Part shown: positions 25,373-56,264 of the stretch, piece after piece
How positions within the stretch are numbered: the stretch's first letter is position 1
Layout of the letters: each line of letters begins with the position of its first letter
NCBI GenBank assembly: GCA_030998015.1
Contig: JARWMV010000029.1
Location: forward strand, 62,001-126,000
DNA: 64,000 nucleotides
Reading direction: 5' to 3'
Source of the DNA: Ceratorhiza oryzae-sativae
Lineage: Eukaryota > Basidiomycota > Agaricomycetes > Cantharellales > Ceratobasidiaceae
The notes under the pieces: model-generated
Told to the model about the DNA's origin: nothing
What the model saw: only the letters and a program-made list of their open reading frames with translations
The model's database searches: none
Translations under genes and position numbers: made by a program

Positions 25373-26041
25373 TGTTATGACCTGTCAAACAGACATAACA
25401 GAGTAACTGAATATTTTTACAGATTTATGGCAATTTTTCCGAAGTGGAACAAGCCACAAACAAGGTCACGTGACCTCAGCGCTTAATCGGCGCTTGCGGT
25501 GGTTACCCTGAGCTCGCTCTAGAATTTCTCTCCCTTGTTACTTGGAGCAAGGGGCGAGTTGTCACGTGATCTCGGCGCTTACAGCAGGATCATGTGACCT
25601 CAGCGCTTATGGTGGTTACCCTGAACTTGCTCCAGCATTTCTCTCTGCTGTTACTTGGAGTGAGGAGCAAGCCGTCACATGATCTCAGCACTTACAGCAG
25701 GATCACATGACCTTAGCACTTACCCCTTGGACCTTGTGCAGCTCTATAAGATTTGGAGCTGCACAAACTTAAGATAAACAATTACCTAACCCATGGTACT
25801 ATATATAACCTGTACCTACTGCAGATTGTACTTAAATAATACATCTGTAGCCACTGCAGCCACAGGTGTATATAAGGAGGATAAAGCAAGACTGGACACC
25901 TCAGCTTGCTTTATCTTGTCAACCACCATAGACCATAACAAACACTGTAACTAGAACCTCAATACATACTGCCTAACACCAAACTGTCAATGTAGCCACT
26001 ACTTAAGTGCTTTGCAAGGAAGCATCCAGAGGGTCACAACA
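25373..26041 (+). repeat. 5' LTR of element A
   Basis: It begins tgttatgacc and ends gggtcacaaca, matching the B LTRs. It holds two tandem copies of a roughly 100-bp module with gcgctta, cacgtg/cacatg and gctcc/ggagc inverted motifs, more mutated than in B. Its end is followed by ttataaagcaagctcttaac, the same downstream sequence as in B. Confidence 0.88.
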
Positions 26042-36600: not shown

Positions 36601-37714
36601 AGCACCAGAAAAACCTTGGGAGGAAATTACCTATGACCTGATCACTGGGCTACCCCTGTCAGAGGGGTTTGACACCATATTTACAGTTGTCAACCACCTG
36701 ACAAAAATGGTCCACTTTATTCCATGTCAATTGGAAGCCAGTGCTATCGATTGCACCAACTTGTTCCCAACATATGTATGGAAACTTCATGGGCTACCAT
36801 GGAAAACAATCTCAGACTGTGGCCCTAACTTTGCATCCAAATTCCTAAGGCACCTATACAAACAGCTGGATATAAAACCCTCCTACTCCACAGCATATCA
36901 CCCTCAGACAGATGGCCAGTCTGAAAGGGCCAACCAAGTAGTGGAAGGGTACATCAGACATTATGTATCAGACTGGCAAGACAACTGGGTCTTGCTCCTA
37001 CCATTGGCTGAATTTGCCTACAATAACAGTGTCAATGCCTTGACTGGCAAATCACCATTCTTTGCAAACTACAGTTTCCATCCAAGGCTGGCAGTTGGGG
37101 ACAGAGAGGAACAAGAACTCCCCTTAGCAGACAACCATGCAGAATGGCTCCAAAAGGGCCATGATGAACTTAAGGCAGCTCTGGAAATAGCAAACCAGAG
37201 GATCAAGGAATACTATGACCAGGAGCATTGGACCCCAGAAGCTATTAAGGTTGGAGACAAAGTCTGGCTTGATACCAAGAACATATGGACACAACAGGCC
37301 TCCAGGAAACTGGCCCACAAAAGAGTTGGACCATTCAAGGTGGTAGCAAAACATGGCACACATGCTTTCAAACCAGACCTACCAATAACCATGAAAATAC
37401 ACCCAGTGTTTCATGTTTCACTTCTCACCAGATATAAAGACAACCCCTATGGCCATCAGGTTCCCCCACCACCACCTGTGGTAACTCCTGAAGGGGAAGA
37501 AGAATTCAAAGTGGAACAGATCATAAAGTCACAATACAACGAAAGGTCTAACGTCTTTGAATACTATGTCAAATGGCTTGGCTACAATGAGCAACAATGG
37601 TTAACTTATGATGACCTGGCAAATGCACCAGAACTCATTGCTGACTATGTCAAGTCACATCCAAAGGCACCCCATGATCCCTGTGCCTTGAAGGGGGAAA
37701 GTGTCATGAACTGA
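33665..37714 (+). pseudogene. Element C pol, interrupted by a solo LTR
   Basis: The protease motif MIDSGATSVFI (near 33865) is followed by stops near 33960 and 34060. A long RT/RNase H frame runs 34060-35304. Its active site reads YMDN at 34816-34827, where a CpG change of GACGAC to GACAAC would account for the lost aspartate. An integrase zinc domain lies at about 35880-36050 (CHNSPAAGHPGQ, then C-x2-C). The solo LTR at 36080-36595 then intervenes. The integrase core and chromodomain resume at 36596 (YHPQTDGQSERANQVVEGYI; KVEQIIKSQYNERSN; WLTYDDLANAPELI). The stop at 37712-37714 lies just inside the 3' LTR. Confidence 0.88.
36080..36595. repeat. Solo LTR of family E inside element C integrase
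   Basis: It starts tgtcagagct and ends catgaca, 516 bp. Flanks atacc (36075-36079) and ttacc (36596-36600) form a 5-bp target duplication with one mismatch. The integrase frame resumes cleanly on its far side. A second, partial copy lies at 24988-25372 in reverse. The coding region of family E is not in this window. Confidence 0.82.
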
Positions 37715-38077
37715 CATGCATATATCCACTCCATAATATTTTCTTGATTTACTACATTTTATGAGAACATCTTCAAAACATACTTGCCTTTTATGGTATA
37801 TCTGTGTCATGTGATTCAGGGGATGTTCTGGACCAATAACCAAGATGTATTTCAACCCTGATGTGAAATTCCACAGCTCCACAGTTGCTTCTACTGCTTC
37901 TATCTCTTATCAGTTGTGACTCACTGTATGGACCTGTTTGTTATGATGTGGCTTGTACTATGTATATAAACCAGGTCAAGTTCACAGAGGACTCCTCAAG
38001 AACTTGACCTCTTGTCGAATACAAGTTCTTTTACTTTCCTACTATTTTCCTTGTTGCCTGACTTGTCATTGTCAACA
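37702..38077 (+). repeat. 3' LTR of element C
   Basis: This is 376 bp, the same length and ends as the 5' copy, preceded by a purine tract (aagggggaaag) and followed by the aggag target duplication. Confidence 0.92.
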
Positions 38078-39762
38078 AGGAGTGACCATGGGGACACCCC
38101 TATGGAACCACAGATCATGATTCCAGAAGAAAGGTTCATAGGTTTCAAGGCAGAGGTACAGGGAAACTTCTGGGAGGAGCTTAAAGAAGCTCAGGAAGAA
38201 GACAAATCTATCAGATCCTTAAGGCTGAGTGTGGCAAATAAAGAACAACTACCTCCCTCAGTACAGAAGGCATTTAGACAGTACAAAATGAAGGAGGGCC
38301 TATTAAGGTATGACAATAGGCTCTACATCCCAGATGACAAGGATTTGAGGTTGAGCCTCCTTGAGGAGTGCCATGATGCTCCTGTGGCAGGTCATCAGGG
38401 ACAAGCCCAAACACTAGAATTACTATCAAGGGATTACTACTGGCCAGGAATGAAGGCCCAAGTAAACCGATATGTGGAATCTTGTGAAATGTGTCAAAGG
38501 AGCAAAGGACACAAACAAGGCACTAGCCTGAAGCCCTTACCAATCCTGTGGAAACCATGGGCAGATGTTGCATACAATTTCATTGTCAAATTACCTGTCT
38601 CAAAAGGGTATGACAGCATCTTGACAGTTGTAGATCACTTCTCCTGGCAGGCCCATTTTGTACCATGTCTGGAGAGCACCAATGCAGAAGAACTGGCAGA
38701 AATATTCATAAGGGAGGTATGGAGACATCACAGGACACCAGAAACCACTGTCTCAGACTGAGGGCCAACCTTTAACAGCCAATTCCTAAAGGCCCTATAC
38801 AAGGGAATTGGGACAAAGCCCAGATTCTCCACTGCCTTCCATCCATTTCTGGATGGACTGTCAGAAAGAACAAATCAATGGGTAGAAGGATTCTTCAGAA
38901 CCTTCTGCAATTATAGACAAGATGATTGGGTAAAATGGTTACCCATTGCTGAATTCTGCCATAACAACCATGTAAACACTACAACAGGACAAACCCCATT
39001 TAAAATGGTATATGGAAAAAACCCAAGATGGGTTGTCTGAGAGGGAGAAGAACTTTCCAAGGCACCTGCTGCAGACAGCATGTGTAATCAAATGGAAAAG
39101 GTGTGGGACAAGGCAAGAGCCTCAATGGAATTACACCAACAAATGGAAAAGAAAGGGAAGGAATTCAAGGTAGGAGACAAGGTTTGGCTGCTCCTAACAA
39201 ACCTCTTGTCCAAGAGACCCTCCAAGAAATTGGACAACCAAAAAGGGGGCCCTTTTGAAATCACAGAGAAGATCTTGTCCCATGCATATTGCCTGGACTT
39301 ACCTAAAACCATATGTGTACACAACAAATTCCATGTGAATCTCCTCTTGCCATTCACAGAAGATAAAGACTTCCAAAGAAGGCAGGCCAAACCACCACCA
39401 ATCATAATGGAAGAAGGAGAGGAGGAGTATGAGGTGGACCAAATTGCAAATTATGAATGGTGGAATGGTGAGCTGTTTTACCAAATCAGATGGAAGGGCT
39501 ACAACCCAATAGAAGACACAATGGAACATGCCAGCAAGTTTGCTGACATGAAAGAGGTTCTAAATGACTTGAAAAGGCACTTACCAGAGGCACCAATGCC
39601 AGTCAAGATGAGTCAATCCTCAGATGACTCAAAAGGCAGACCAAAAAGAACCAAACAAATATCTAGAAAGCTTTAAAATGAGCCATCCAGGATACCCAAG
39701 AAAGGCCAGAGCCTGCTCTACCACCTCACTTGCACCACAATACACATGCAAAACCTCAAAAC

Positions 39763-40583
39763 ATGCCTTTCATCACTCACCCAGTTGCACATCCCAACCG
39801 TTACACACTACTTGTTGAAAATCAGGTGGCCCCACTTTGGCAGCCACCCACCACTAGGTGGCCAGCACCCTACCCTGGCAGGGAAAATAGTCCTAAACTA
39901 GGGATGTACTGCTCTAGTGTGGAAGACACCCAGAGGTATGCTGAGTGACTGTTGCCAGGGGCTAACCTAGTGTATGTCCCCAAGAAGTTAAGGGATGAAA
40001 GGAACTGGATTGACAATGACAAGTACCTGGATCCCAGGTTAGGGGTCCTGATATGGCATGGAAGCCAGAAGCCAACAACAAGAAACACCTTGCTAAAAAT
40101 GCCAATGTATGTCATTGACAATATTGTGGGACCAATGGTCAACATGGTGGCCAAGGCAGCAAGACAACAGAGGAGGGCCTCAGGCCAAATGGTGGATGGG
40201 GGGACTGGGAGGTGGAGCACCAGGCCAAGGCATTGTTGGAAGAGTGGAAGTTGACACCAGCCACACTGTATGTGGGACTGCTCAAAGCAACTACCACTGA
40301 TGAAATGTTTACTGCTATCAGGATGAAGCAGGCAAACATGAGTGACTTCCAAAATTGGGTGAAGGTGCACCCAAACAAAAACACCAATTACAACACAGAC
40401 ATGACAAGCCTTACATCAAGCCTAGAATCACTGGTTGTGGCTGAGGAAGAAGCAAAGCCAGTGATAAAGGAACCCACCCTGGACCCAGCTGTTGAACGAG
40501 CCAAACAGTACTGGGACCAGTGGGAAATCAAGCTTGTTGAAGCTCTGGAAGAGGTGCCACTGTTGCAACCAGCCCCCATATGA
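39763..40583 (+). pseudogene. ORF-X, element A copy
   Basis: It matches the 272-aa ORF-X of B (45253-46071) along its whole length, for example NLVYVPKKLRDERNWIDNDK near 39966. It is broken by a TGA near 39946, where B has an Arg codon, and by a frameshift near 40200. It lies after the chromodomain stop. Confidence 0.85.
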
Positions 40584-40654
40584 CCACTTTGCCCTCACAG
40601 ATTTTTTCTCAAATGTATAAGAATTTTTATATCAAACCTAATACATTTTACTCT

Positions 40655-41187
40655 CTATTTACGTTTGCCCTTGAGGGGCTGGGTATAGGGCTTCTTGCCC
40701 TTCTTATCCTTCTTATCAGACCAAACAACTGACTGGGTGGCAGGCTGCAACCAAGGGGCCTCCCCCCCTGGGAAGTCAGCCATGTAGTTCTGGAAACACC
40801 CAGAACCAGATGCCAAAAAGGGCAAAGCCTCATCAAACAAGGGAGCAGAGCCCTCCTCAAAGAATTTGGCAAGAGCAGCCTGGTGAGCCTGCTCCTCAAA
40901 GGACTTGTAGTCCTGATCAACAAGCACCCAGACATGCTCAAGGGTGGCCTCATGGGCCTGACCATCAAGGAGTATGTGCTCTTCTATAGAGCAAGTAAGT
41001 AACAAGAGACCAACAAAGAAGAAGCATATGTACCTGGCACCCCAAGGAAGAACCAGTCCCTGACACCTTCATAGAAGTCCTCAAGGGAGGTGTTGCACAC
41101 AGCGTTGCAATAGGCACAGTACTCCCCCTCAGGGAGAGACCATCAGTTGCAGTCAAGGGGATTGTAGTTGAGGGTAATAACATGCAT
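40655..41187 (-). pseudogene. ORF-Y, element A copy, antisense to pol
   Basis: It matches the two-exon ORF-Y of B. The start ATG at 41187, the intron (GTACAT...CTATAG, about 40996-41050) and the stop at 40655 are all retained. A TGA near 41145 replaces a Cys codon. The downstream exon, including QNYMADFPGGEAPWLQP, is open to its stop. Retention of both splice sites shows the intron is older than the A/B split. Confidence 0.8.
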
Positions 41188-41604
41188 AGTAAAGACAGGA
41201 TGAGGAAGGGAAACAACAAAACCACAAACATTAAAAAATCACAGTGCAACACGATAACTTGCACAAACATCAAAACAAAGTCTGGTCATGTGACACAAAT
41301 GGACATGTGACCATCTGCCAGAAAACAAACAACAAAGCATGGGAATCACATGACCTAGCCTAGTCACATGAATATACACTATCCCCTAACTACCAGAGGG
41401 GTTGGAGAGGGGGCACCAACTGAAGATGGAGCAGAGGCCCTGAGTGTAGCAAGGAATAAGGCCAACACAGGGGAACGCAGGAAGGGCACCCCTTGGAGAT
41501 GTGTCATAACCAGCACAAGGCTACATCAGGAAACCACATGACCACAACAACCAGAGAAGGTATATCTAGGGGATGCCCTTGGGGGTAAAAGGGGTTATCA
41601 TCTC

Positions 41605-41992
41605 ATGCCCTCCCCACAAGATGCATCTACCTCTAAAAAAACCAACAATGCTAAGCGAAGATGGCTCAAATGTGGGAACACCCCAGCCAAACAAATCAAG
41701 CACAGGGTGGAGGTTGCCATTGCCATTGCCGGTGCCCTTGGGATCAAGCCCAGCCCCCTCACCTGCTTCTACATGGCCTATGCCAACAGATCGCAGGTCT
41801 GAAGAGCTGACCAAAACTGCACTGGCCCCCCAATTCTGCATCCAGACCAGGGCAGTGCTGCTGACCTGGTTGAAGCTATGCAATCAGCCCTCAAGTGGGC
41901 TTGTCACCTGATACAAGGCATTCTGCTGCCATCAGCCCAATCACTGGGCAACTTTAGCCATGGTCAAACAGCACAACCTGGAGGAGCCAAAC
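41605..41992 (+). pseudogene. Rep N-terminal fragment, element A copy
   Basis: It matches the first part of the B Rep gene, including the region of endonuclease motif I (VLLTWL in A), with stops and CpG-type changes. It stops at 41992 where the B LTR begins, so the rest of the endonuclease and the helicase are absent. Confidence 0.8.
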
Positions 41993-42571
41993 TGTTGTGA
42001 CCCTCTGGAGGCTCCCTTGTGGAGCACTTAAGTAGTGGCTGCGTTGACGGTTTGGTGCTATGCAGTATGTATTGAGCGTTCTAGTTACAGTGTTTTGCTA
42101 TGGTCTATGGTGGTTGACGAGATAAAGCAAGCTGAGGCATCCAGTCTTGCTTTATCCTCCTTATATATACCTGTGGCTGTGGTGGCTGCGGACGTATTAT
42201 CTAAGCACACTCCGCAGTAGGTGTAGGTCATGTACAGTACTATGGGTTAGGTAATTGTTTGTCTTAAGTTTGTGCGGCTCCAAATCTTATAGAGCCGCAC
42301 GAGGTCCGAGGGTCATGTGACCTTTTTGGACTTAAGCACCCGGCGCTTAATCGCTGAATAAGCGCCGAGGTCACGTGACAACTCGCTCCTTGCTCCAGGT
42401 AACATGGGAGAGAAACGCTGGAGCGAGTTCAGGGTAACCACCGGCGCTTAATCGTTAGGTAAGCGCCGAGATCACGTGATCCTGTTTATGGTTTGTTCTG
42501 CTTTGGGAAAAATGCCATAAATCTGTACAATATTTGGTTGTTAGGTTATGTCTGCTAGGCAGGTCATAACA
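41993..42571 (-). repeat. 3' LTR of element B
   Basis: It runs tgttgtgacc to ggtcataaca on the plus strand, 579 bp. It carries one 101-bp module (from 42342) plus a partial second, where the 5' LTR has two plus a partial third. It also has a 12-bp insertion near 42200. Differences from the 5' LTR are mostly C/T or G/A changes, many at CpG. Confidence 0.9.
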
Positions 42572-42590
42572 TTATCCCCCCCTTTGGACA
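42572..42590 (-). promoter_or_regulatory. Polypurine tract of element B
   Basis: On the minus strand the sequence just before the 3' LTR is aaagggggggataa, a classic plus-strand priming tract. Its position next to TGTTATGACC fixes the element's orientation and LTR boundary. Confidence 0.85.
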
Positions 42591-42649
42591 TGTCTTGGGG
42601 GATCTCGAGGCATGTTTCTTTTCTGGGTTCTAAAAAGTTTCTAAAAGGT

Positions 42650-42774
42650 ATCTCATATATCGAGGAGGTTAAGGGCGCTGGACTCGAACCAACGACCTTC
42701 CGTTCAATGTGTAATTGATTAGCTAGGAGATGATGAGTCAGGCTAGACCCCTTAACCTCTACGCTACATGAGAT
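42650..42774 (-). other. tRNA-like hairpin with Pol III box motifs
   Basis: Outer 7-bp (42650-42656 with 42768-42774) and inner 11-bp (42665-42675 with 42749-42759) inverted arms enclose a tRNA-like core on the minus strand. A perfect B box GGTTCGAGTCC lies at 42690-42680 within a T-arm-like 5-bp stem. An A-box-like TAGCGTAGAGG lies at 42766-42756. A proper D arm and a sensible anticodon arm could not be fitted without an intron or a long loop. It may be a decayed or tRNA-derived Pol III unit. Confidence 0.45.
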
Positions 42775-42869
42775 TACTTTCTCCTTGCTTATTTCCTTGT
42801 TTAAGCTTACTTCTCGAAACATGGTCTGTGAATAAAACAGCTTATACAAAGATAATTTATTTTTATTTT

Positions 42870-44194
42870 TTAAGGAAAAATAAAAAATGGCTTCCCTCCT
42901 GAGTATACCCAGTCTACATTTTTGGATACCCATAAGTCCCCTTCTTCCCCCTCTATGTCCGTCCAGCACTTCATTATGGCCGACCGGCTATTCCCCAGGA
43001 TCACTGTTGGCCGTACCTTCATTGACTTCACATGAGCATATCTGCCTGTGAAGTCTGCTTCGTACTGGCTCAGGGCTTTGAGCGAGTACTTCCCGTTTGA
43101 CTGGACCATGTCATCCAGGATCCAGATGTCGGCGTCCTCCGACAGATTCCCCATGTTCCAGACATTGCACATCCGGCTATGGGAGCCCTTGGATCGTGCA
43201 TACGCCGTCTTCCCAGTTCCTGTTTCGCCTTCGATCACCAGGATGCGATGGCGCACGCCCCTCCCTCTCTTCTCAGCCTCTTCCGCAAACCATCGGTCCG
43301 CCCTGTTGATGTGCGCCCGGTCTTCTGGGACTTCCAACTCCACCGGGATTGCAGGCATGCATCCCCGGTCCTCCTTATCGTGTACTCAGCATATGCTCGA
43401 CCGAGTTCCAGTCGTCACCATCTGGAGGGGGCGCAGGCGCTTGAATGCCTGGTAGTACTCTTTTTTTGTCGCTGAGGCAACAATCTCCGCCCCGTCCTCC
43501 AGGTCTGCCTCCGCCCTCGACCTTTTCCTGCCCTTCCCCTTCACCAGGATTTCCTCCAACCTTTCCAAGGTCAGGTCCCCCGCCATCAGCTCCTCTACCT
43601 CCTCGCCGTTAGCTCCGACATCCTTCCAGAGGTAGTTGAAAGCCTCCCTTGCAGGGTTGCCTCCTGGTCCGTCCTTGAGGTCCTTCAGCAGGATGTTGGG
43701 GTGTTGCCCCTCGAAGTCCCAGAACCAGGTGTTCTGGGTGTTCCAGCCGCCCTTCCGCTCCTGACTGATGGAGAGGCGTGGACATGGAGGGGCCGGGCTG
43801 GGTCGTAGTTCGGTTCCTCGGGGTTGTGGCGTTCCACCACCGCCAAAGTGCCCAATGATTTGGCCGTTGGCGGCAGAACGCCTCGTATCGGGCGACGAGC
43901 CCACTTGAGGGCTGATCGTGTAGCTTCGACCAGGTCAGCAGCACCGCCCTGGTCTGGACGCGGAACCGAGGGGCCAGCGCGGTTTCGGTCGGCTCTTCGG
44001 ACCCTCGATCCGTCGGCGTAGGCTGCATAGAAGCGGGTGAGGGGGCTCGGCTTGATACCGAGGGCACTGGCAATGGCGACGCCGACCTCCGCCCTTCGCT
44101 TGATCCGCTTGGCTGGGGTGTTGCCGCGTTCGATCCATTTCCGCTTAGCATCGTTTACAGTTTTAGAGGTATTTGGGGACTGGGAAGAGAGCAT
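42870..44194 (-). pseudogene. CRESS-DNA-type Rep: rolling-circle endonuclease plus SF3 helicase, frame-broken
   Basis: Minus-strand segments show, in order, endonuclease motif I (VLLTWS, 43944-43927), motif II (HVHA, about 43786-43775), a geminivirus-like HPNI box (43703-43692), motif III with Y-x-x-K (YLWK, 43634-43623), Walker A GETGTGKT (about 43229-43206), Walker B ending ILDDM (about 43126-43106) and motif C ILGN (near 43000). Such proteins nick an origin and unwind DNA for rolling-circle replication. Apparent 1-nt shifts separate motif I from II and II from III, and one TGA lies at 43386-43388 before the helicase. The start could be 44194 or 44151. The HPNI box suggests the geminivirus/genomovirus branch. 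Sequencing error cannot be excluded. Confidence 0.85.
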
Positions 44195-44630
44195 GAGAGT
44201 GCGGGTTATCTCGGGCCTTGTGCTTGTCTATATAAGCTGCAAGGTCCGTTTTGATCCACATGACTCTGTCTTGCATTTGTTGTGATCACATGACCTTGTT
44301 TTGATGATGACGCATCTCCGAGGGGTGCCCTCCCATCCGTTCCTCCGCATCGGCCTTGATCCTCGCTACGCTCGGGGCCTCCGCTCCCCCACTTCGGTTG
44401 GTGCCCCCTCTCCGACCCCTCCGGTAGTTAGGGGATAGCGTATATTCACGTGACTAGGCTAGGTCATGTGATTCCTGTGCTTTGTTGTTTGTTTTCTGGC
44501 AGATGGTCACGTGTCTGTTGGTGTCACCTGACCAGACCTTGTTTTGATGTTTGTGCAAGTTATTGTGTTGCACCGTGATTTTTTAATGTTTGTGGTTTTG
44601 TTGTTTTCCTTCCTCATCCCGTTCTTTACT
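44195..44630. other. Divergent spacer between Rep and ORF-Y
   Basis: The spacer holds E-box-like CACGTG and CACATG motifs (near 44288, 44448, 44465 and 44508), the same kind repeated in the LTRs, and a GC-rich middle. Near 44416-44434 ccccT...Aggggg-type arms form a 5-bp stem with a 9-nt loop. In CRESS replicons the origin hairpin lies in such a spacer. The usual nonanucleotide (TAATATTAC-like) is not present, so an origin is not shown. Confidence 0.4.
44228..44236 (-). promoter_or_regulatory. TATA-like box upstream of Rep
   Basis: TATATAG on the minus strand lies about 34 nt before the ATG at 44194, which leaves little leader for that start and slightly favours the ATG at 44151. It lies in the 436-bp divergent spacer between Rep and ORF-Y. 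Confidence 0.4.
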
Positions 44631-45172
44631 ATGCGCGTTATTTCCCTTAACTACAATCCCCTTGACTGCACCTGCTGGTCTCTCCCTGAGGGGGAGTACT
44701 GTGCCTACTGTGATGCCGTGTGCGACGCCTCCCTTGAAGACTTCTATCAAGGTGTTGGGGACTGGTTCTTCTGTGGGGTGCCAGGTATGTGTGTTCGTTC
44801 TTCATCATTTTCACGTAGCTAACTCGTTCTGTAGAAGAGCGCATCCTCCTTGATGGTCGGGCCCATGAGGCCACCCTTGAGCGTGTCTGGGCGCTCGTTG
44901 ATCAGGACTACAAGTCCTTTGAGGAGCGGTCCCACCAGGCCACTCTTGCCGAATTCTTCCAGGAGGGCTCTGCTCCCTTGTTTGATGAGGCTTCGCCCTT
45001 TGCAGCGTCTGGTTCTGGGTGTTTCCAGAACTACATGGCCGACTTCCCAGGGGGGGAGGCCCCCTGGCTGTTGCCTGAGAACTGGGCCAGTGGTTCTGCA
45101 GCCCATACTACTAGGAAGGATAAGAAGGCAAAAAAACCCTATACCCGGCCCCTCAAGGGCAAGAAAAAATAG
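44631..45172 (+). CDS. ORF-Y: two-exon accessory gene antisense to the retrotransposon
   Basis: Exons 44631-44784 and 44835-45172 join across a 50-nt GTATGT...TGTAG intron to give 163 residues. Exon 1 is rich in Cys and aromatic residues (CTCWSLPEGEYCAYCDAVCD), so metal binding is possible. Exon 2 is acidic and aromatic (CFQNYMADFPGGEAPWLLP) and ends in a Lys-rich tail. The gene faces away from Rep and converges with ORF-X, its stop 80 bp from ORF-X's. Its A copy keeps the same exons and intron. I do not recognise the family. A capsid role would fit the position opposite Rep but the protein is short, so this is speculation. Confidence 0.68.
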
Positions 45173-45252
45173 AAACATTTTGAAATGTATTATTATATGA
45201 TTATGAAAATTATTCTTAAGACATTTCAAAAAACGTGTGATAGGCCCGGTAA

Positions 45253-46071
45253 TCACAGGGGCTCTGGGGCCAGCAGGGGCACTTCCTCCAGGGCGCCCGC
45301 CAGCTCATCCTCCCATTTGGCCCAATCCGTTTGGACTCCCTCTTGGGCCGGGTCCGGGGTTGGTTCCTTTATTGTTACTCTCGGCTCCTCCTCCTTCACC
45401 ACCAGGGACTCCAGGCTTGCTGCAAGGCTCGACATATCTGTGTCGTAACCGTGCAGGTTTGGGCGTACCTTCACCCAGTTACGGAAGTCAGCCAAGTTTG
45501 CTTCCTTCAACCTGATGGCAGTAAACATTTCATCAGTGGTAGTGGCCTCAAGCAGTCCCACATACAGTGCTGCCGGTGCCAGCTTCCACTGCTCCAACAG
45601 TGCCTTTGCCCGGCGCTCCACCTCCCAGTCCCCTCTGTCTGCCATTTGGTCTGTGGCCCTCCTCTGTTGCCTTGCTGCCTTGGCCACCACGTCGACTGTT
45701 GGTCCCACGATATTGTCGACGACATACATCGGTGTTCTTAACAAGGCGTTTCTCGTCGTTGGCTTCCGACTCCCATGCCATGTCAGGACCCCTAACCTGG
45801 GATCCAGGTACTTGTCATCGTCGATCCAGTTCCTTTCATCCCTTAACTTCTTTGGGATGTACACTAGGTTAGCCCCTGGCAACAGTCGTTCGGCGTACCT
45901 CTGGGCGTCTTCCACACTGGAGCAGTACATCCCTGGTTTAGGACGATTTTCCCTGCCAGGGTAGGGTGCTGGTCGCCTGGTGGTGGGTGGCTGCCGAAGT
46001 GGGGCCACCTGATTTTCAGCAAGTGGGGTGTAACGGTTGGGATGTGCGACTGGGTGAGTGACGAAAGGCAT
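45253..46071 (-). CDS. ORF-X: 272-aa accessory protein after pol
   Basis: This uninterrupted frame starts 108 bp after the pol stop. An N-terminal Pro-rich segment (APYPGRENRPKPGMYCSS) leads to a folded-looking middle (NLVYIPKKLRDERNWIDDDK; DPRLGVLTWHGSRKPTTRN) and a helical part (WEVERRAKALLEQWKLAPAA). A Glu/Pro-rich acidic tail ends the protein. It has no signal peptide or membrane span, so an envelope role is unlikely although the position after pol is where env-like genes sit. The A copy is full length but broken. The family is not recognised. Confidence 0.7.
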   Translation of the reverse strand: MPFVTHPVAHPNRYTPLAENQVAPLRQPPTTRRPAPYPGRENRPKPGMYCSSVEDAQRYAERLLPGANLVYIPKKLRDERNWIDDDKYLDPRLGVLTWHGSRKPTTRNALLRTPMYVVDNIVGPTVDVVAKAARQQRRATDQMADRGDWEVERRAKALLEQWKLAPAALYVGLLEATTTDEMFTAIRLKEANLADFRNWVKVRPNLHGYDTDMSSLAASLESLVVKEEEPRVTIKEPTPDPAQEGVQTDWAKWEDELAGALEEVPLLAPEPL

Positions 46072-46179
46072 GTTTTGGGGTTTCGCAGGTTGAGGTGTTT
46101 TTGGGGTTTGGTGTGTTGTGGTGCAAGTGAGGTAGTAGAGCAGGCTCTGGCCTTTCTTGGGTATCCTGGATGGCTCCTT

Positions 46180-49100
46180 TTAAAGCTTTCCAGATCCTCG
46201 TTTGGTTCTCTTTGGCCTGCCTTTCGAGTCACCTGAGTGCTGACTTGTCTTGACTGGCATTGGTGCGTCTGGTAAGCGCCTTTGCAAGTCATTTAGAACC
46301 TCTTTCATGTCAGCAAACTTGCTGGCACGTTCCATTGTGTCTTCTATTGGGTCGTAGCCCTTCCATCTGATTTGGTAAAACAGCTCGCCATTCCGCCATT
46401 CATAATTTGCAATGTGGTCCACCTCGTATTCCTCCTCTCCTTTTTCCGTTATGATTGGTGGTGGTTTGGCCTGCCTTCTTTGGAAGTCTTTATCTTCTGT
46501 GAATGGCGAGAGGAGATTTACATGGAATACATTGTGTACACGTATGGTTTTAGGTAGGTCCAGGCGATATGCATGGGATGAGATCTTTTCTGTGATTTCA
46601 AAGGGCCCCCCTTTTCGGTTGTCCAGTTTCTTGGAGGGTCTCTTGGACGAGAGGTTTGTTAGGAGCAGCCAAACCTTGTCTCCTACCTTGAATTCCCTCC
46701 CTTTCTTTTCCATTTGTTGGTGTAATTCCATTGAGGCTCTTGCCTCATCCCATACCTTTTCCATTTGATTACGCATGTTGTCTGCAGCGGGTGCCTCAGA
46801 TGGTTCTTCTCCCTCTCGGACAACCCATCTTGGGTTTTTTCCATATACTGTTTCAAATGGGGTTTGTCCTGTTGTAGCATTTACGTGGTTGTTATGGCAG
46901 AATTCGGCAATGGGTAACCATTTTACCCAATCATCTTGTCTATAATTGCAGAAGGTTCTTAAGAACCCTTCTACCCATTGATTTGTCCTTTCCGACAGAC
47001 CATCTGTTTCTGGATGGAAAGCAGTGGAGAATCTGGGCTTTGTCCCAATTCCTTTGTATAGGGCTTTTAGGAATTGGCTGTTAAAGGTTGGCCCTCGGTC
47101 TGAGACAGTGGTTTCTGGGGTCCCGTGATGTCTCCATACTTCCCTTATGAATATTTCTGCCAGTTCTTCTGCATTGGTGCTCTCCAGACATGGTACAAAA
47201 TGGGCCTGCCGGGAGAAGCGATCTACAACTGTCAAGATACTGTCGTACCCCTTTGAGACAGGTAATTTGACGATGAAATCATATGCGACATCTGCCCATG
47301 GTTTCCATGGGATTGGTAAGGACTTCAGGGGAGTGCCTTGTTTGTGTCCTTTGCTTCTTTGACACGTTTCACAAGATTCCACGTATCGGTTTACTTGGGC
47401 CTTCATTCCTGGCCAATAGTAATCCCTTGATAGTAATTCTAGTGTTCGGGCTTGTCCCTGATGACCTGCCACTGGGGCGTCATGGCACTCCTCAAGGAGA
47501 CTCAACCTCAAGTCCTTGTCATCTGGGATGTAGAGCCTATCGTCATACCTTAATAGGCCCTCCTTCATTTCATACCGTCTAAATTCCTTCTGTACTGAGG
47601 GCGGTAGTTGTTCTTTATTTGCCACACTCAGCCTTAAGGATCTGATAGATTCGTCTTCTTCCTGAGCTTCTTTAAGCTCTTCCCAGAAATTCCCCTGTAC
47701 TTCTGCCATGAAACCTATGAACCTTTCTTCTGGAATCATGATCTGTGGTTCCATAGGGGTATCCCCATGGTCGCTCCTTCTGGAAAGGGCATCTGGCTTC
47801 TGTGAGAGTTTCCCTGGTCTATACACAATCTGAAAATTGAAGGGTGCCAGAGTGAGATACCATCTGGCATGCCTTCTATTCCACATCTGGGCATTTTGCC
47901 AGTACTGGAGGTTCCTATGGTCAGTGTATATCACAATAGGTTCCTCTGTCCCTTCTAAGTATAACCTCCAGTGCTCTAAGGACCTAACAATTGCAAGCAA
48001 CTCCTTGTCGTAGGTGTCATAATTTTTCTCTGGTGGGGTGAAGCTCTTCGATAGGAAGGCAATTGGATGCAATCGGTTGTCATCACCCTTTTGGCTTAGT
48101 ACCGCCCCCATGGCCACTCCTGAGGCGTCTGTTTCCAGTATGTATGGCCTGTTTGGGTTTGGGTGGATCAGGACCGGTTCTCTTGCTACTGCTTCTTTGA
48201 TAGCTTCAAATGCTTCCTGTTGTTTTCTTTCCCACAGGAATTTGACATCTTTTTGGGTGAGATCTGTGAGGGGTTTGGCTAAGGTACTAAACTTCTCTAT
48301 CCACCTTCTATAGAACCCCACGAAGCCTAGGAAGGCTTGGACTTCTTTTACTGTGTTAGGTTCTGGCCATTCTAGAACTGCCTTTACCTTTTCCTTTTCC
48401 ATCGATATCCCTTCTGGGGATATGACAATTCCAATGAAGCTTACCTCCTTCACAAAGAACTGACACTTGTGTGGTTTGAGGAAGAGGTGGTTTTCCCTCA
48501 TTCTTCTTAACACTTCCCTGACATGTTGTACGTGTTCTTCCCTGTTTCTGGAAAACACTAGTACATCGTCCATGTAGATTACCACATAATCGTCTATCAC
48601 GGAACTTTTCCATCATGAACCTGGTAAAGGTTCTTGGTCCTTCTTTTACTCCGAATGGCATGACCAAGCATTCAAACTGGCCTTCTCCTGTCCTGAAAGC
48701 TGTTTTCCATTCGTCTCCCTCTTTTACCCTGATGTTGTTGAACCCCCATCGAACATCCATTTTTGAATAGATGGTTGCATCCTTCAGTCTCTCAATCAAT
48801 TCTATTTGGATTGGAAGTGGAAACCTGTCTGGCTTGGTGATGTCATTCATCTTACGGTAGTCGACTACCAACCTAAGCCCTCCATCTGCTTTGTTCACAT
48901 AGAAACAGGGTGCAGCTACAACTGACTGGCTGGGCCTTATTTTCCCGTTTCTTAGTTCCTCCTCTAGGTACTCCCTGAGCGCCTTTGTTTCTGCTGGTGA
49001 CATACTGTACCTCTTTGCAGGCTTTGGCAGCTCCGCTCCCTCGATCAGGTCCATTTTGAAGTCTAGGTTACCTCGGTGGGGTGGAAGTTCTCGGAAACCT

Positions 49101-49588
49101 TCTTCCCCAAATAGGTCTTCAAAATCCCTAAATTCTTCTGGGATTTGTAGGCTTTCACTTGCTGCCCTTGCCTTGATTTCGTCTGGGTATGAGATGGTAA
49201 GGTCTTTCCAATCTATGATAGGTTCTGCTTCTTCAAGCCATTCTTTCCCTAGGACTATGTCGGTGTCACCTAGGGTCATTACATAAAGGGAGCATTTTAG
49301 TGTCTTCCCTTCCACTTCGATGTTTAGTTCTGCCCTTTCTTCTATGGCATCCTTGATTTCATTTCCATCAATGGCCACAATTGATTTCTTGTGTTTGAGG
49401 GGAGTGGTTGGAATCCCTTTTTCCCTTGAATAGGCCTTATCGATGAAGTTGGTTGAAGATCCTGAGTCAATCAGCGTTTTAGCTGGTTCCATGATTCCCT
49501 CTACCGTAGTGTATATTATTGATTGATTACTAGACTTCTTGAGGTAACATACATCTGCGGTAGGGGTTATATTGGGGTCCTCCAACAT
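46180..49588 (-). pseudogene. Element B pol: protease, RT, RNase H, integrase, chromodomain
   Basis: The first frame (49588-48356) holds the protease LIDSGSSTNFID (near 49460) and RT fingers/palm with [18 protein letters not shown] small deletion near 48600 shifts to a second frame (48600-46180). That frame starts just before an intact YMDD box (48576-48565) and runs through RNase H (LETDASGVAMGAVLSQ), the integrase HHCC zinc domain (HDAPVAGHQGQ; C-x2-C), the integrase core (VSDRGPTFNSQF; HPETDGLSERTNQ) and a C-terminal chromodomain (YEVDHIANYEWRNGELFYQI), ending in a basic tail. The chromodomain identifies a chromovirus-type Gypsy. Apart from that shift the 806-codon frame is intact, and the shift may be a sequence error. 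Confidence 0.9.
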
Positions 49589-51437
49589 GGAAGTGGTAGG
49601 ACCAATTAGTTTTCCGACTCAGAGCTGCTTTCTTCCTCAACTTGTCTGCTGGCCTTCCCTTGTATCTTAGCTTTGTCGTAGGTCCACTGGCCTCGGCACT
49701 CCTTCAGGACATGCCCTGATTTACCGCATTTGATACAGAGTCCTTCTTTCCTTCGCCTGTCCTTTTCACTGTTTGGTATCCTTACCATGTTGTTGGTTTG
49801 GGTATTCCCCTGTTTGCCGCTGGTCCCTAAAGGCTTGTTCCCCCTTGTTTGTATTTCGCTGGTGCCCAGGTTGAATTTGATGAGTTGCTGGTCCTTGTAT
49901 TCATTTTCTGGTTTGCAAACTGCATGTCATCCATTTTGCAGGCAAAGTCAATTAATTGATCTAAGGTATATGATGGACCTTCAGCCTCATTTGCCAGTAC
50001 TTCAATCCTTAAGATCTCTTGTCGTACTTCGGGTTTTAACCCTTCCCTGAATTGGTCCTTGAGGGCTTCCTGGTTCCAGTCTACCTCTTGGATCAGGATC
50101 CGGAATTGGGTAGCATAATCCAATGCACTCTTGGTCTGTGTTAATTTCCTTAGTTTCCGGATGGTCTTTTCCTTTATGACTGGGTCATTAAAAGCATCCA
50201 GGAATCCCTTCCTGAAATCCTTCCAGGATGCAAGAATACCTGTGTGTTCGCCTGCTAGTAGTTTCCGGCGGTAAGGTTGTGCCCAGTTTGCTGCTTCCCC
50301 ATCCTCCATGTTCATTAGCACAGCAGATATCTTTTTTCGGTCATCAAAGGCTGATTCGTCATAGTCAGCAAAGAAAAGTTCCATGCTGATTATGAAGTTC
50401 TCTGCTTCCTTCCCCTTTTTCCCATTAAATTTGCTGGGTCTCCCTAGTCTCGCCTCCTTAGGAGTGTGGTTTGCAGCAAGGGTAGGTTGGTTTGCTTGGG
50501 ATGGAGGTTCTGTTCGGGGTCTTATTGTGGACTCAGCCTGGAAGGTTCTTCCCAGAAAGGTGTTCGTACTGGGGAGGCTGAGGGGGATCGTGAGGGGCTT
50601 CCTATGACCACCCTAGTTCTTCCCCTGGTTTCTTCTGTCCTTTCCCTTGGCCTTCCTGCTTCAGTTGTTTTCCGGAGCTCATTTCCTAGATCGGTTACCC
50701 GTTGTTCTAGTGCGATTAGGATCTCCCCTGTGTTTTCGGTTTTCTTCTCTAAGCTTTCGAGCTTTCGCTCTTGCATTCCCAGTACCCGGTTTATTTCCAT
50801 GGAGATGTCCTTTAATTCTTTTATCAGGTTCCCCATTTCTGCTTTTAGGTCGTCCTGGTTCTTTGCCACATAGAGGACATTTTTGTTGGATGTTTCCATA
50901 GACCTTACCATCCAGTCCACGTTTCCTTCTTGTCGGGTTAGTGATATTTGACACTGATTTATACCTGTGATTGCCTTTTCTAGTTCCCTATGATTATTGT
51001 CTCTAAGTTCCTTGAGCCCCGCCCTGATGGCGTGGCAATGGTGTGAATAGGGTTGGCAGTGGCTATGGTTCCGGGACCTGGCTGGGGTTGTGTCCTTGCC
51101 TCTTCCGCCAAGGCGTGCCTTGTTCGTATATGGTTCGGGTCATATCTTCTACCTCATCCCTCTCTGGATTTGAGATATCTTTTGGGTCTGGATTTATCAG
51201 GTGAATTGGCGGTTGAGGGCTGCGGAGTGGTATTCCCCCTATTTCCCCTCCCAGGATGGGGGCCCGAGTGGGGTTGGGTTGAGCCACTGGTCGTGGGTTT
51301 TGTGGCAACCCCCCTGGCATTCCTTGGAGGGTCTCATCTGGGTTACCTTCCGCCTCTGGGGAAGCAATGGGTTTGGGTGATTGTGGCCTACTATTTGCCA
51401 CCCTGCTTTGAGATCGAGTTTGTGGTCTCTGTGACAT
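49589..51437 (-). pseudogene. Element B gag
   Basis: The ATG at 51437 opens SQRPQTRSQSRVANSRPQSP and 124 codons before a 1-nt shift near 51112 relative to A. A coiled-coil stretch around 50700-50920 and a capsid domain (50384-49827, with SALDYATQFRILIQEVDWNQ) follow. A CCHC zinc knuckle CIKCGKSGHVLKEC lies near 49735-49700. At least three short indels break the frame. CpG is retained, and Arg codons that are Trp, Gln or stop in A are intact here. Confidence 0.85.
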
Positions 51438-51558
51438 AGTTTCTTCGTGTTCTCTTATGTATCACAGGAGTTAGCTGGTTTTCTCGTGTACTCAGCCCTT
51501 AGTATCTGTGCAGTATACTTATGTTCGCCACTAGTTAAGTTAAGAGCTTGCTTTATAA

Positions 51559-52225
51559 TGTCGTGACCCTCTGGAGGCTCCCTTGTGGAGCACTTAAGTA
51601 GTGGCTGCGTTGACGGTTTGGTGCTATGCGGTATGTATTGAGTGTTCTAGTTACAGTGTTTGCTATGGTCTATGGTGGTTGACAAGATAAAGCAAGCTGA
51701 GGCATCTAGTCTTGCTTTATCCTCCTTATATATACCTGTGGCTGCGGTGGCTGCGGACGTATTATCTAAGTAGGTGTAGGTTATGTACAGTACTATGGGT
51801 TAGGTAATTGTTTGTCTTAAGTTTGTGTGGCTCCGAATCTTATAGAGCCGCGCGAGGTCCGAGGGTCATGTGACCTTGTTGGACTTAAGCACCTGGCGCT
51901 TAATCGCTGAATAAGCGCCGAGGTCACGTGACAACTCGCTCCTCGCTCCAGGTAACATGGGAGAGAAACGCTGGAGCGAGTTCAGGGTAACCACCGGCGC
52001 TTAATCGTTGGGTAAGCGCCGAGATCACGTGACAACTCGCTCCTCGCTCCAGGTAACATGGGAGAGAAACGCTGGAGCGAGTTCAGGGTAACCACCGGCG
52101 CTTAATCGTTGGGTAAGCGCCGAGATCACGTGACCTTGTTTATGGTTTGTTCCACTTCGGGAAAAATGCCATAAATCTGTACAATATTCGGTTGTTAGGT
52201 TATGTCTGCTAGGCGGGTCATAACA
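51559..52225 (-). repeat. 5' LTR of element B with duplicated 101-bp module
   Basis: It runs tgtcgtgacc to ggtcataaca on the plus strand, 667 bp. A 101-bp module begins at 51895 and 51996, with a partial third copy at 52097. Each holds a ggcgctta/taagcgcc hairpin, a palindromic tcacgtga and an aactcgctcc/ggagcgagtt pair. A TATA-like tatatata lies in the left half. Confidence 0.9.
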
Positions 52226-52864
52226 GTAAGAGTGAGACTCAGTTGTCCTGCCAATCTGATACATAGTGTCTCAGGTACCCTTCTACTACTTGGTTAGCCC
52301 TTTCAGACTGGCCATCTGTTTGGGGGTGATATGCTGTGGAGTAGGATGGTTTCACATCCAGCCATTTATACAGGTGCCTTAGGAATTTGGATGCAAAGTT
52401 GGGGCCATAGTCTGAGATGGTTTTTTGTGGTAACCTGTGAAGTTTCCATACATAAGTTAGGAAAAGGTTTGCACAGTCCATTGCACTGGCTTCTGATTGG
52501 CATGGAATAAAGTGGACCATTTTTGTCAGGTGATTGACAACTGTAAATATAGCATCAAACCCTTCTGACAGGGGAAGCCCAGTAATTAGGTCATAGGTGA
52601 TTTCCTCCCAAGGTTTTTCTGGTGCTAGTATTGGGTTTAGGAGCCCTGGGGGAACTTGGTTGCTGTGCTTATTCCTAATACAGGATTCACAATGCATGAC
52701 ATACTTGTTGACCAATTTTTTCATTGCTGACCATGTATATTTGTGGTTTAACAACTTGTATGTTTGGAATTGCCCTGGATGTCCTGCTGCTGGGTTATCA
52801 TGACAACTTTCAATGACCAGCTTGCAAAGTTCTTTGTTATTTAGGACATAGATCTGGCCCTTGT
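52226..52864 (-). pseudogene. C-type Gypsy integrase fragment
   Basis: On the minus strand it encodes the zinc domain (C-x2-C region CESCIRNKHSNQ) and core (FTVVNHLTKMVHF; YHPQTDGQSERANQ) of a C-family integrase. It ends mid-gene at 52226 against element B and is cut at 52864 by a D-family LTR. It lacks the E insertion present in element C. Confidence 0.88.
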
Positions 52865-53429
52865 TGTTACGGGTCAGGGTACACTTGGATATCTAGAGCT
52901 TAAGCAAATGTAGATATGTTAGTATACACTAATCGTACTCAATACTTCTTAGACTAGGGTAAGAAGGCTCAAAGTAGTTGCAATGCAATCAAGTAACACT
53001 CAAGGTAGTCTTAATCTTTCACAGTGTAAACTGACTAATTTATAGGTATAAAGAGCAAGACTACTATGGTCAGGTTCCCTTAGATATCTTAAATGTAGTT
53101 CAGCCCTAGTTGCTTGGACTAACTGATACTAATCTTAATACTAGGCTTAAGCGATAGCTTATAGGATAGATGGTGGGCTGCCTAATGCGTGTACTTCCTC
53201 AGCTACAGGTACTTAGATTTCCTCTAATAGCTGGTACTTAATGTCACACTCAATCAGGCAATATTGTATCCTTATATATCTCTGTATATAAGATACAATG
53301 ACTCAGACAGTATATAACTAATATGGTACTTTATTCCTCAGTACTAGTTATATAAGAAATCACACACAGACAAGAGAAATAGAAAGAGAAAAAGGAAACC
53401 AATAACCGGTCTGGGTTGAGTAGTGAAGG
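52865..53429 (-). repeat. Partial D-family LTR
   Basis: It starts tgttacgggtcagggtac and matches the first 565 bp of the solo LTR at 56682-57989. It is truncated at 53430 by the LTR of a C-type element. The flank cttgt (52860-52864) would be one half of its target duplication. Confidence 0.85.
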
Positions 53430-53805
53430 TGTCGACGACGACAAGTCAGGCGACAAGGAAAATAGTAAGAGAATAAAAGAACTTGTATTCGACGAGAGGT
53501 CAAGTTCTTGAGGAGTCCTCTGCGAACTTGACCTGGTTTATATACATAGTACAAGCCACATCATAACAAACAAGTCCGTACAGTGAGTCACGACAGATAA
53601 GAGATAGAAGCAGTAGAAGCGACTGCGGAACTGCGGAATTTCACATCAGAGTTGAAATACATCTTGGTTACCGGTCCGGAACATTCCCTGAGTCACATGA
53701 CATGGATATACCATAAAAGGCAAGTATGTTTTGAAGATGATCTTATAAAATGTAGTAAATCGAGAAAATATTGTAGAGTGGATGTATGCGTGTCAGTTCG
53801 TGACA
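53430..53805 (-). repeat. 3' LTR of the second C-type element
   Basis: It is 376 bp, the exact length of both LTRs of element C, with matching ends (tgtcgacgac...gttcgtgaca). It retains CpG sites that are TG or CA in element C's LTRs. Confidence 0.9.
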
Positions 53806-56236: not shown

Positions 56237-56264
56237 CCTTACATCAAGTAACTATCAACTAACA

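Follow-up and report, generated by a model that had tools for sequence, protein, structure and literature searches.

A putative geminivirus-like Rep module kept between pol and the 3' LTR of a chromovirus family in Ceratorhiza oryzae-sativae

The genome of the basidiomycete Ceratorhiza oryzae-sativae contains a family of LTR retrotransposons with a Rep gene module inside the unit delimited by its target-site duplications (TSDs); the module has been inherited across sublineages, and its HUH and SF3 catalytic residues have been kept. The window analyzed here, a stretch of 64,000 nucleotides of contig JARWMV010000029.1, holds one such retrotransposon (element B) next to another, truncated one (element A). 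The reading that we favor, tentatively and at somewhat less than an even chance, is that a self-priming chromovirus family retains a geminivirus-like (CRESS-type) Rep, acquired long ago, in a working module that also includes ORF308 and an antisense gene, and that this Rep multiplies the DNA of the element by rolling circle. Element B comprises the following features:

41993-52225, minus strand: element B, whole unit, Ty3/gypsy chromovirus with self-complementary primer site
51559..52225, minus strand: 5' LTR, from self-alignment and sequence
51545..51556, minus strand: primer binding site (PBS), 12 nt, perfect complement of LTR positions 528-539
49827..50612, minus strand: gag ORF, from the ORF listing
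46180..49618, minus strand: pol (protease, RT, RNase H, integrase, chromodomain), from ORFs and Pfam
45253..46179, minus strand: ORF308, sense, stop-to-stop, directly after pol
44631..45172, plus strand: antisense gene, 163 aa, exon 1 44631-44784, exon 2 44835-45172
44276..44475, no strand: conserved non-coding block from which the antisense gene and Rep diverge
42870..44151, minus strand: Rep, with HUH motifs I-III and SF3 helicase Walker A/B/C
42667..42766, minus strand: tRNA-like segment with a long stem GGTTAAGGG/CCCTTAACC, from sequence and fold
42573..42585, minus strand: polypurine tract directly before the 3' LTR, from sequence
41993..42571, minus strand: 3' LTR, TGTTATGACC...GGTCACAACA, read 42571-41993

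The order gag, protease, RT, RNase H and then integrase with a chromodomain is that of a chromovirus. Pol, split in B over two overlapping frames and ending with a stop at 46180 (minus strand), scored above the Pfam cut-offs for RVT_1, RT_RNaseH, Integrase_H2C2 and SH3_Tf2-1, exactly at the cut-off for Chromo (25.1 bits) and below it for rve (28.6, cut-off 32.6); protease and RT were recognized by Pfam at locus L025, where the same gag ORF matched Retrotrans_gag (PF03732, E 9.5e-14) and also Ty3_capsid. Self-alignment, sequence and the units with TSDs gave paired LTRs with TG/CA-type ends. The two LTRs of B are identical at 545 of 566 aligned bases, the 5' LTR having an extra tandem unit of ~101 bp, and a TSD is absent at B's own ends. 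Bounded by direct LTRs and carrying gag-pol, B has neither terminal inverted repeats nor transposase ORFs. Elements of the Tf1/sushi group are self-priming, their PBS being complementary to the 5' end of the RNA, and B would fit this group, a TATA box at position 494, from which the RNA start is predicted, lying ~30 nt upstream of LTR positions 528-539.

The interval between pol and the 3' LTR of B holds ORF308, the spliced antisense gene and Rep. The Rep motifs were located as follows:

43941-43927, minus strand: motif I, LLTWS
43789-43775, minus strand: motif II, LHVHA
43703-43692, minus strand: HPNI
43640-43620, minus strand: motif III, FNYLWKD
43229-43206, minus strand: Walker A, GETGTGKT
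43124-43107, minus strand: Walker B, WILDDM
43004-42990, minus strand: motif C, VILGN

CRESS Reps are defined by HUH motifs I, II (HxH) and III (YxxK); all three occur here in order, with LLTWS a loose fit to motif I, and are joined by the SF3 Walker A, Walker B and motif C. The earlier note had described a Rep with motifs I-III, HPNI and Walker A/B in this interval, facing a spliced gene on the opposite strand, and both genes were found, the second with a predicted 50-nt GT-AG intron (44785-44834) and a product with a basic C-terminus. All Rep motifs can be read in B, but the gene is broken there, since they are spread over three different frames (one with motif I, one with motif II, and one with motif III and the helicase); in other copies the frame is open.

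The block between the two divergent genes may be a promoter region and is a candidate origin. Its identity with loci L037 and L039 is 66-78% per 50-nt bin, that of the adjacent bins (7601-7750 and 7951-8000) 2-46%. Within it lies a short hairpin, CCCCT-AACTACCGG-AGGGG (44434-44416), exact in 20 of 21 modules, the left arm of which is not conserved in L037 and L039. The segment before the polypurine tract, with what we take to be A-box- and B-box-like sequences, is retained in L033, L034 and L037; ARAGORN and Rfam in their ordinary modes found no tRNA there, which speaks against a tRNA identity, and at a very lax setting ARAGORN reported numerous chance genes.

Other LTR elements lie beside B in the window:

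25373..26041, plus strand: LTR of element A, in opposite orientation to B
30613-38077: other nested Ty3-like element, with its LTR directly after pol
38077..41992, plus strand: part of element A, cut off by B, with pol end, ORF308 region, antisense gene region and Rep start

Element A had been said to share the layout of B. Its pol end, ORF308 and antisense regions and the start of Rep do so, but the rest of Rep is missing: cut by B's LTR, it ends at 41992 after ~365 nt (80% identical). What is left spans the region of motif I, where LLTW can be read and is shortly followed by a stop, and does not extend to motif II. Because of this truncation, the comparison of A with B is weaker than first claimed.

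The helicase piece of Rep gave 151 matches in the 48.8-Mb genome (150 of them listed), which, together with full-length homologues bearing the same motifs in other fungi, excludes chance. The claim that Rep always lies between pol and the 3' LTR, as against family copies lacking it, held in nearly every readable copy of the genome: 36 of 40 pol copies (41 rows, two of one copy being joined) have a same-sense Rep within 10 kb, 32 of them at 2.7-4.2 kb downstream and four at 8.2-9.8 kb, the latter possibly not of the same element. Among the other four, C108 retains an internally deleted module, and three have no Rep within 10 kb among the matches listed. Twenty loci, selected by module match, were fetched; their 21 modules all have an LTR downstream and, in 20 cases, a same-sense pol upstream. 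All 24 Rep contexts readable to the end (these 21 modules, B, L037 and L039, leaving aside the truncated Rep of A and a fragment of an old Rep at the L015 edge) are followed by an LTR. The family thus belongs to the LTR elements in which most copies carry an additional ORF after pol and before the 3' LTR. Target duplications of 5 bp were perfect in five of the six units tested, the sixth matching at 4 of 5 bases. One diverged copy (pol 70%, module and LTR ~64%) retains the complete order and a second (62-68%) retains it over the part read; the divergence of L037 and L039 is inflated by heavy CpG depletion (observed/expected 0.03 and 0.02, and 0.57 in B). Copy contexts, diverged copies and TSDs bear out the view that Rep is inside the mobile unit, is older than the split of the sampled sublineages and moves with the element.

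Rep is under strong, frame-specific purifying selection. Open frames were counted on the 21 fetched modules, ten of which have a single open Rep frame of at least 429 aa, while 11 are not open at this length over all motifs (one of these is open at 378 aa). Pooled pN/pS was 0.158 for 12 open Reps; between L033 and the other 11 it was 0.096 in frame and 1.72 and 2.37 in the shifted frames (helicase dN 0.036, dS 0.96), and among the 11 themselves 0.224 in frame vs 1.31 and 1.51 shifted. For ORF308 the value was 0.237 (n = 8). Two diverged copies have a putative 61-nt GT-AG intron in the sense strand of Rep, recognized from the sequence, at a site where proteins of other sources also have translated insertions. 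This intron is precisely missing in the B lineage, a loss expected after passage through spliced RNA; the antisense gene, unlike the B-lineage Rep, still has its intron.

Full-length Rep homologues are 69-77% identical in other Ceratobasidium, the genus of all named relatives; the protein search with ORF308 gave a single homologue, from Ceratobasidium sp. AG-Ba, at 43% identity. The Y and K of motif III, the first His of motif II, the Walker A lysine, the Walker B DD and the GN of motif C are invariant in 14 database homologues, and the second motif II His is present in at least 90% of them. A Pfam scan of these 14 members gave no match above the gathering score, and Gemini_AL1, Viral_Rep and RNA_helicase were not listed. 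Gemini_AL1_M (PF08283) reached E = 0.001 (19.5 bits, cut-off 24, positions 11-106 of 107), its match ending at Walker A, and came up at E ≤ 1 in six members; as unrelated families reach similar E-values in the same scan (Jiv90 0.0048, P53_TAD 0.0052), this single match gives weak support. There were also weak matches to nSTAND3 (0.043) in 11 members and to AAA_22 in seven. The motifs and the sub-threshold Gemini_AL1_M match together suggest the CRESS label. No viral Rep sequence matched in the collections searched: the PDB gave no relative, an IMG/VR profile scan 35 pattern matches with none confirmed, tblastn against plasmids one chance match (E = 8), and PHROGs weak matches only (an ATPase family and terminases ranking first, with a DnaA-like match at 0.22). 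In the fungus's own genome PF00799 had no match and PF08283 three sub-threshold ones away from the Rep loci; both missed these Reps, and since no control genome matched either profile, this search shows no absence. Two AlphaFold runs (14 and 55 sequences) were of low confidence (mean pLDDT 39 and 37), leaving the HUH fold putative, and a BFVD search with the first, poor model, which carries no weight, gave no match at E ≤ 0.001.

Could the protein be an unrelated P-loop protein in which HUH-like words occur by chance? The lack of a match over the Pfam gathering score and of PDB or viral relatives would fit, as would the nSTAND3 and AAA_22 matches, but the six motifs stand in CRESS order with key residues invariant in the homologues, Gemini_AL1_M falls at the right place, and we find this quite improbable. 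The earlier note also allowed that Rep might be a passenger, caught once and copied only through its position between pol and LTR, with which the 11 modules lacking a long open frame and the broken gene of B agree. Selection on Rep being frame-specific (pN/pS 0.10 in frame vs 1.7-2.4 shifted for L033 against the eleven), this option is contradicted; the conservation of Rep in other Ceratobasidium, beside the one ORF308 homologue, also counts against it, and a mere passenger is very unlikely, indeed barely credible. A separate mobile unit (transposon, plasmid or virus) that repeatedly inserted into one slot of the LTR element, or converted it, would explain why Rep and the spliced antisense gene, with the upstream block that they share, resemble an ambisense replicon, and why L033 and L034 have gag-pol 98.6-99.9% identical to B and Rep only 90-91%. 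However, the LTRs of these two have diverged too (88-89%), the pattern of a template switch from one LTR element to another, the link between LTR and Rep divergence being loose because L022 and L031 combine LTRs of 89-90% with Reps of 94-96%. An LTR follows Rep in every fully read context and no free form appeared in IMG/VR or plasmids, and we regard such a unit as improbable.

For the favored reading, that of a working Rep module, a rolling-circle DNA stage is a plausible prediction. A family in a Ceratobasidium-like fungus would have taken up a geminivirus-like (CRESS-type) Rep long ago; Rep, made in the nucleus from its own promoter, would nick the element's cDNA, circular or nuclear, somewhere within the unit, candidate sites being the LTR hairpins and the conserved block that precedes Rep, and would unwind this cDNA with the host polymerase behind, the element DNA thus being multiplied by rolling circle before transcription or integration. 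The canonical NANTATTAC nonanucleotide was not found on either strand of B's module or 3' LTR, and in place of a stem-loop with a NANTATTAC-type nonanucleotide only non-canonical hairpins were seen. The LTR hairpins are weakened as Rep origin because L033 and L034 lack the exact form, and such a palindrome would also suit a transcription factor. Rep might instead be a selected gene of the element with another job and no rolling-circle stage. It could, for instance, push host cells into DNA synthesis, recruit cDNA to replication forks, take part in integration by nicking the target or the ends of the cDNA, or counteract silencing. Selection and conservation fit any function, the canonical origin was not found, and integration looks like plain integrase work since both the 5-bp TSDs and the LTR ends of the units are of the ordinary kind; yet the kept HUH and SF3 residues argue for nicking and unwinding of DNA over pure protein contacts. 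We consider another job of this kind almost as probable as the favored reading. A full hybrid of LTR retrotransposon and CRESS replicon, which would have two replication modes, spreading between loci by reverse transcription and multiplying its circular cDNA in the nucleus by a rolling circle driven by Rep, seems to us rather unlikely.

Tf1/sushi-type chromoviruses (Ty3/gypsy) have RT, RNase H, integrase, chromodomain, a self-priming PBS and 5-bp TSDs; the B family is like them in these features and differs by its 3.6-kb Rep module. With Geminiviridae/Genomoviridae-type CRESS Reps it shares HUH motifs I-III, SF3 Walker A/B/C and the weak Gemini_AL1_M match, and its antisense partner diverges from Rep across a shared upstream region as in CRESS replicons, although no free circular genome turned up in IMG/VR or plasmids and no canonical nonanucleotide in B's module or 3' LTR. 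In the available text on the geminivirus-like transposon of Tuber melanosporum (Liu et al., 2011, PMC3198968), Rep is amplified to tens of copies in an element with 37-bp terminal inverted repeats, transposase ORFs, no obvious TSD and an interrupted Rep. Both, as far as that text goes, have a geminivirus-like Rep multiplied inside a fungal mobile element; the B family, in a different fungal phylum, differs in its LTRs, gag-pol, 5-bp TSDs and a Rep often open and under measured selection. Extra ORFs between pol and 3' LTR, sense or antisense, are described in the accessible parts of Vicient and Casacuberta (2020, PMC7264820) and, as bdelloid ORF3 types, of Rodriguez et al. (2017, PMC5408684); in many families they are conserved over most copies, and they include env-like, dUTPase, GDSL esterase and DEDDy exonuclease ORFs and antisense ORFs without a determined role, those parts naming no rolling-circle replication initiator, unlike the B family. 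In some plants, endogenous geminiviral sequences contribute >100 copies of Rep to a genome (PMC7758297); the main text of that paper lacks the words retrotransposon, LTR and Gypsy and gives no sign of Rep inside an LTR element.

LTR retrotransposons and Rep replicons represent two great copying strategies of small elements and are classified apart from each other. In the present family a retrotransposon that now occurs in many copies and several sublineages has, as a constant component, a Rep whose catalytic residues selection has preserved; this hints that an RNA-copying element may also use a DNA-copying enzyme. Retroelement circles are usually regarded as dead ends; if Rep acts on the element's own DNA, they would become a replicating stage, and if it does not, a viral-type replication enzyme would have been put to another use. 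With its many copies and its relatives in sister species, this natural family makes the question directly testable.

Element B, a Ty3/gypsy chromovirus LTR retrotransposon, carries Rep within a module that lies between pol and the 3′ LTR. Its features in the window are as follows.

52225 to 41993, minus strand: element B, comprising 5′ LTR, gag, pol, a 3.6-kb module, polypurine tract and 3′ LTR
52225 to 51559, minus strand: 5′ LTR of element B
42571 to 41993, minus strand: 3′ LTR of element B

The pol region contains protease, RT, RNase H, integrase and chromodomain, and the primer binding site is a 12-nt perfect complement of LTR positions 528–539, located about 30 nt below the TATA box at position 494, which is the layout of self-priming elements of the Tf1/sushi type. 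Along the element the module begins with ORF308, followed by an antisense gene that encodes 163 aa and is interrupted by a 50-nt intron; next come the upstream block shared by this gene and Rep, Rep itself, a tRNA-like segment and, last, the polypurine tract. The earlier note had attributed the same layout to the related element A on the plus strand. This holds for the end of pol and for the ORF308 and antisense regions, while of Rep A retains only the first ~365 nt, extending beyond motif I and stopping short of motif II, where it is truncated by the LTR of B. Because B lacks a target-site duplication, its junction with A does not represent a clean nested insertion. A second Ty3-like element (window 30613–38077), with LTRs of ~378 bp, gag-pol and no extra module, is nested in A, and related fragments lie reversed at 52226–57990. 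The window also holds a 9-bp tandem repeat array of ~330 bp (15578–15910).

The window corresponds to C29:62001–126000 in a genome of 48.8 Mb and 253 contigs, throughout which copies of the family were searched for. The module DNA query gave at least 56 matches (first 40 of 204 candidates), which by hand count, with neighbouring pieces joined, represent ~38 copies, 37 of them reaching the LTR edge. A protein search with the helicase piece of Rep yielded at least 151 matches, of which 150 are listed (150 of 196 candidates scored), with identities from 100% down to 66%. The pol search yielded at least 41 matches (40 of 273 candidates scored), taken as 40 copies. Among the matches listed, 36 of these 40 have a same-sense Rep downstream, at 2.7–4.2 kb in 32 and at 8.2–9.8 kb in four. 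One of the remaining four, on contig C108, has a module with an internal deletion, and for the other three no Rep was found among the Rep matches listed. Twenty loci (L015–L034), fetched on the basis of their module match, contain 21 modules, all followed by an LTR and 20 preceded by pol, which is the position that the earlier note had proposed; the exception, in L027, is directly preceded by an LTR and is a deletion derivative. Units read at both ends are flanked by 5-bp target duplications, perfect in five of six cases and agreeing at 4 of 5 bases in the sixth. Rep is therefore part of the integrated unit and moves with the element, as had been claimed.

Some loci show unusual arrangements. 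L027 (contig C143) holds a derivative in which two LTRs enclose the module alone, with part of ORF308, the antisense gene and Rep; one of these LTRs is shared, head-to-tail, with a longer copy. At L016 (contig C13) an LTR directly abuts a second, incomplete LTR, after which comes the 5′ portion of a further element with the same orientation; recombination or a concatemer could produce such a head-to-tail array. Bases 1–411 of L015 hold an older Rep fragment, 87% identical and in the same orientation, ~500 bp past the 3′ LTR of that copy.

The Rep of B contains motif I (LLTWS), motif II (LHVHA), an HPNI box and motif III (FNYLWKD), together with the helicase motifs Walker A (GETGTGKT), Walker B (WILDDM) and C (VILGN), in the order typical of CRESS Reps. 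These are spread over three frames, so the B copy is a broken gene. The homologues are invariant at the Y and K of motif III, at the first motif II His and at the SF3 residues. The sole profile support for a CRESS Rep was Gemini_AL1_M, with E = 0.001 and 19.5 bits, below the cut-off of 24; its alignment covers nearly the whole profile, ends at Walker A and reaches E ≤ 1 in 6 of 14 members, in a scan where unrelated families attained 0.005 in single members and nSTAND3 appeared in 11 of 14 (best 0.043). No relatives were found in PDB, IMG/VR, plasmids or PHROGs, and the predicted structure models were too poor to show a fold. Given the order of the motifs and the invariant motif II, motif III and SF3 residues, we consider it, with reservation, a diverged geminivirus-like Rep. 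Another frame (MLSSQSPN..., window 44194–43685, minus strand) overlaps the Rep N-terminus and opens at the first ATG below a TATA-like sequence upstream of Rep; its FYAAYADGSRVRRAD stretch recurs in proteins of Ceratobasidium sp. AG-Ba, e.g., P0007, and this region may thus code in two frames.

LTR retrotransposons with additional ORFs in the slot after pol and ahead of the 3′ LTR are well known (PMC7264820, PMC5408684), and in the fungus Tuber a geminivirus-like transposon has been described that has inverted repeats and transposase ORFs (PMC3198968). In the open-licence papers searched, no title or abstract among the matches listed concerned a Rep inside an LTR retrotransposon.

Whether Rep is a passenger, as the earlier note had allowed, was assessed from its coding pattern. 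Ten of the 21 modules have all six motif words in a single frame that is open for 429 aa or more, and an eleventh has them in a frame of 378 aa. Pooled pN/pS was 0.158 for twelve Reps whose frame stays open between motif I and the stop; RT-RNase H gave 0.294 (n = 8), integrase 0.105 (n = 5) and ORF308 0.237 (n = 8). Since the twelve were chosen for openness, low ratios are favoured, a bias met in part by a shifted-frame control on the same letters. The comparison of L033 with the other eleven gave 0.096 in frame vs 1.72 and 2.37 in the shifted frames, and the eleven without L033 gave 0.224 vs 1.31 and 1.51. In the helicase part dN was 0.036 and dS 0.96 (L033 against the eleven), constraint was weaker in the first 120 codons (ratio 0.21), and 30–38% of the differences touched CpG sites in the four pairs compared. 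We conclude that Rep is a working gene in this family rather than a passenger.

The family also seems to be mosaic. Identity of gag-pol to B is 97.9–100% in the fetched copies (one short match, 96.9%), and outside L033 and L034 it is 94–98% for Rep, 91–98% for the antisense gene and 95.5–97.6% for ORF308, but 88% for the ORF308 of L032. L033 and L034 have RT and integrase above 99%, Rep at 90–91% and LTRs at 88–89%, and their identity breaks at element positions 7710–7780, inside a 71-bp segment whose marker word is present twice in 11 of 20 loci; L022 and L031 have LTRs at 89–90% and Reps at 94–96%. L033 and L034 read as near-identical gag-pol joined to Rep-LTR halves of a different subfamily, and template switching between related elements with different Rep-LTR halves fits the pattern.

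Older copies occur in the same genome. C12 (part fetched as L037) is 70% identical to B in pol and ~64% in module and LTR, and retains the whole series from pol through ORF308, the antisense gene, Rep and the tRNA-like segment to the LTR; C20 (L039), read over the antisense region, Rep and LTR, keeps these at 62–68%. Their CpG observed/expected ratios are 0.03 and 0.02, vs 0.57 in B, a depletion so strong that the divergence is in part decay, apparently methylation- or RIP-like. The tRNA-like segment (window 42667–42766), between Rep and the polypurine tract, contains sequences that resemble an A box and a B box, folds with a strong outer stem and is kept in L037 as well as in L033 and L034; neither ARAGORN nor Rfam calls it. 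Outside this genome, Rep homologues were found as proteins: the best is from AG-Ba (77% identical, covering 94% of the query), others at 57–71% come from Ceratobasidium strains 395, 428, 394 and UAMH 11750, strain 414 has a partial one, and further homologues are in jgi and lgn entries, probably metagenomic. No other named organism appeared in these protein searches at the E-limits used, and the homologues point to a Ceratobasidium-like host for the genome studied here. ORF308 has one homologue (43%).

In C12 and C20, Rep contains a 61-nt GT-AG stretch at the same site, past motif I and ahead of the RYKAFC segment, after which the frame resumes. B, L015 and L033 are uninterrupted there, and the twelve open Reps have equal length across the site. 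Translated insertions at this site in P0023, P0046, P0054 and P0060 (jgi) and in P0017 and P0030 (AG-Ba) make it likely that the intron is an old one, removed precisely from the lineage of B. Splicing of element RNA can take out an intron on the sense strand, which is then lost on reverse transcription; an antisense intron cannot be lost in this way, and the antisense gene has kept its own. Of the 21 modules, 20 show the intron pattern of the antisense gene, as does B, the exception being L017, where the start pattern used gave no match; the protein is open to about full length in 14 of the 20 modules with the pattern. In a Rep exon-2 tree P0022, which has no intron, groups with proteins that bear one, and the intron-less P0020 pairs with P0026, of uncertain intron state; these might be further losses, although as gene-caller proteins they carry little weight.

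In L037 and L039, a block of ~200 bp upstream of Rep (window 44276–44475) retains 66–78% identity in each 50-nt bin, compared to 2–46% in the adjoining bins, which marks it as a putative promoter, a candidate origin or both. It contains a short hairpin, CCCCT-AACTACCGG-AGGGG, which 20 of 21 modules have in exact form; in both diverged copies its left arm is altered. The LTRs contain tandem units of ~100 bp (~101 bp; window 42340–42480 and 51890–52125, and the LTRs of L015–L034) in which the inverted repeat CGGCGCTTA...TAAGCGCCG forms a 9-bp stem around a loop, of 9 nt in 34 of 43 cases and ending in CGAT in most, with adjoining CACGTGA sites; exact hairpins are present in 18 of 20 loci and in neither L033 nor L034. 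The canonical nonanucleotide is absent from the upstream-block and LTR hairpins.

As to what Rep does for the family, the reading we put forward is that it would act on the element's own DNA in the nucleus, nicking and unwinding its circular cDNA, which a host polymerase would then multiply. Selection of Rep for another task is about as likely.
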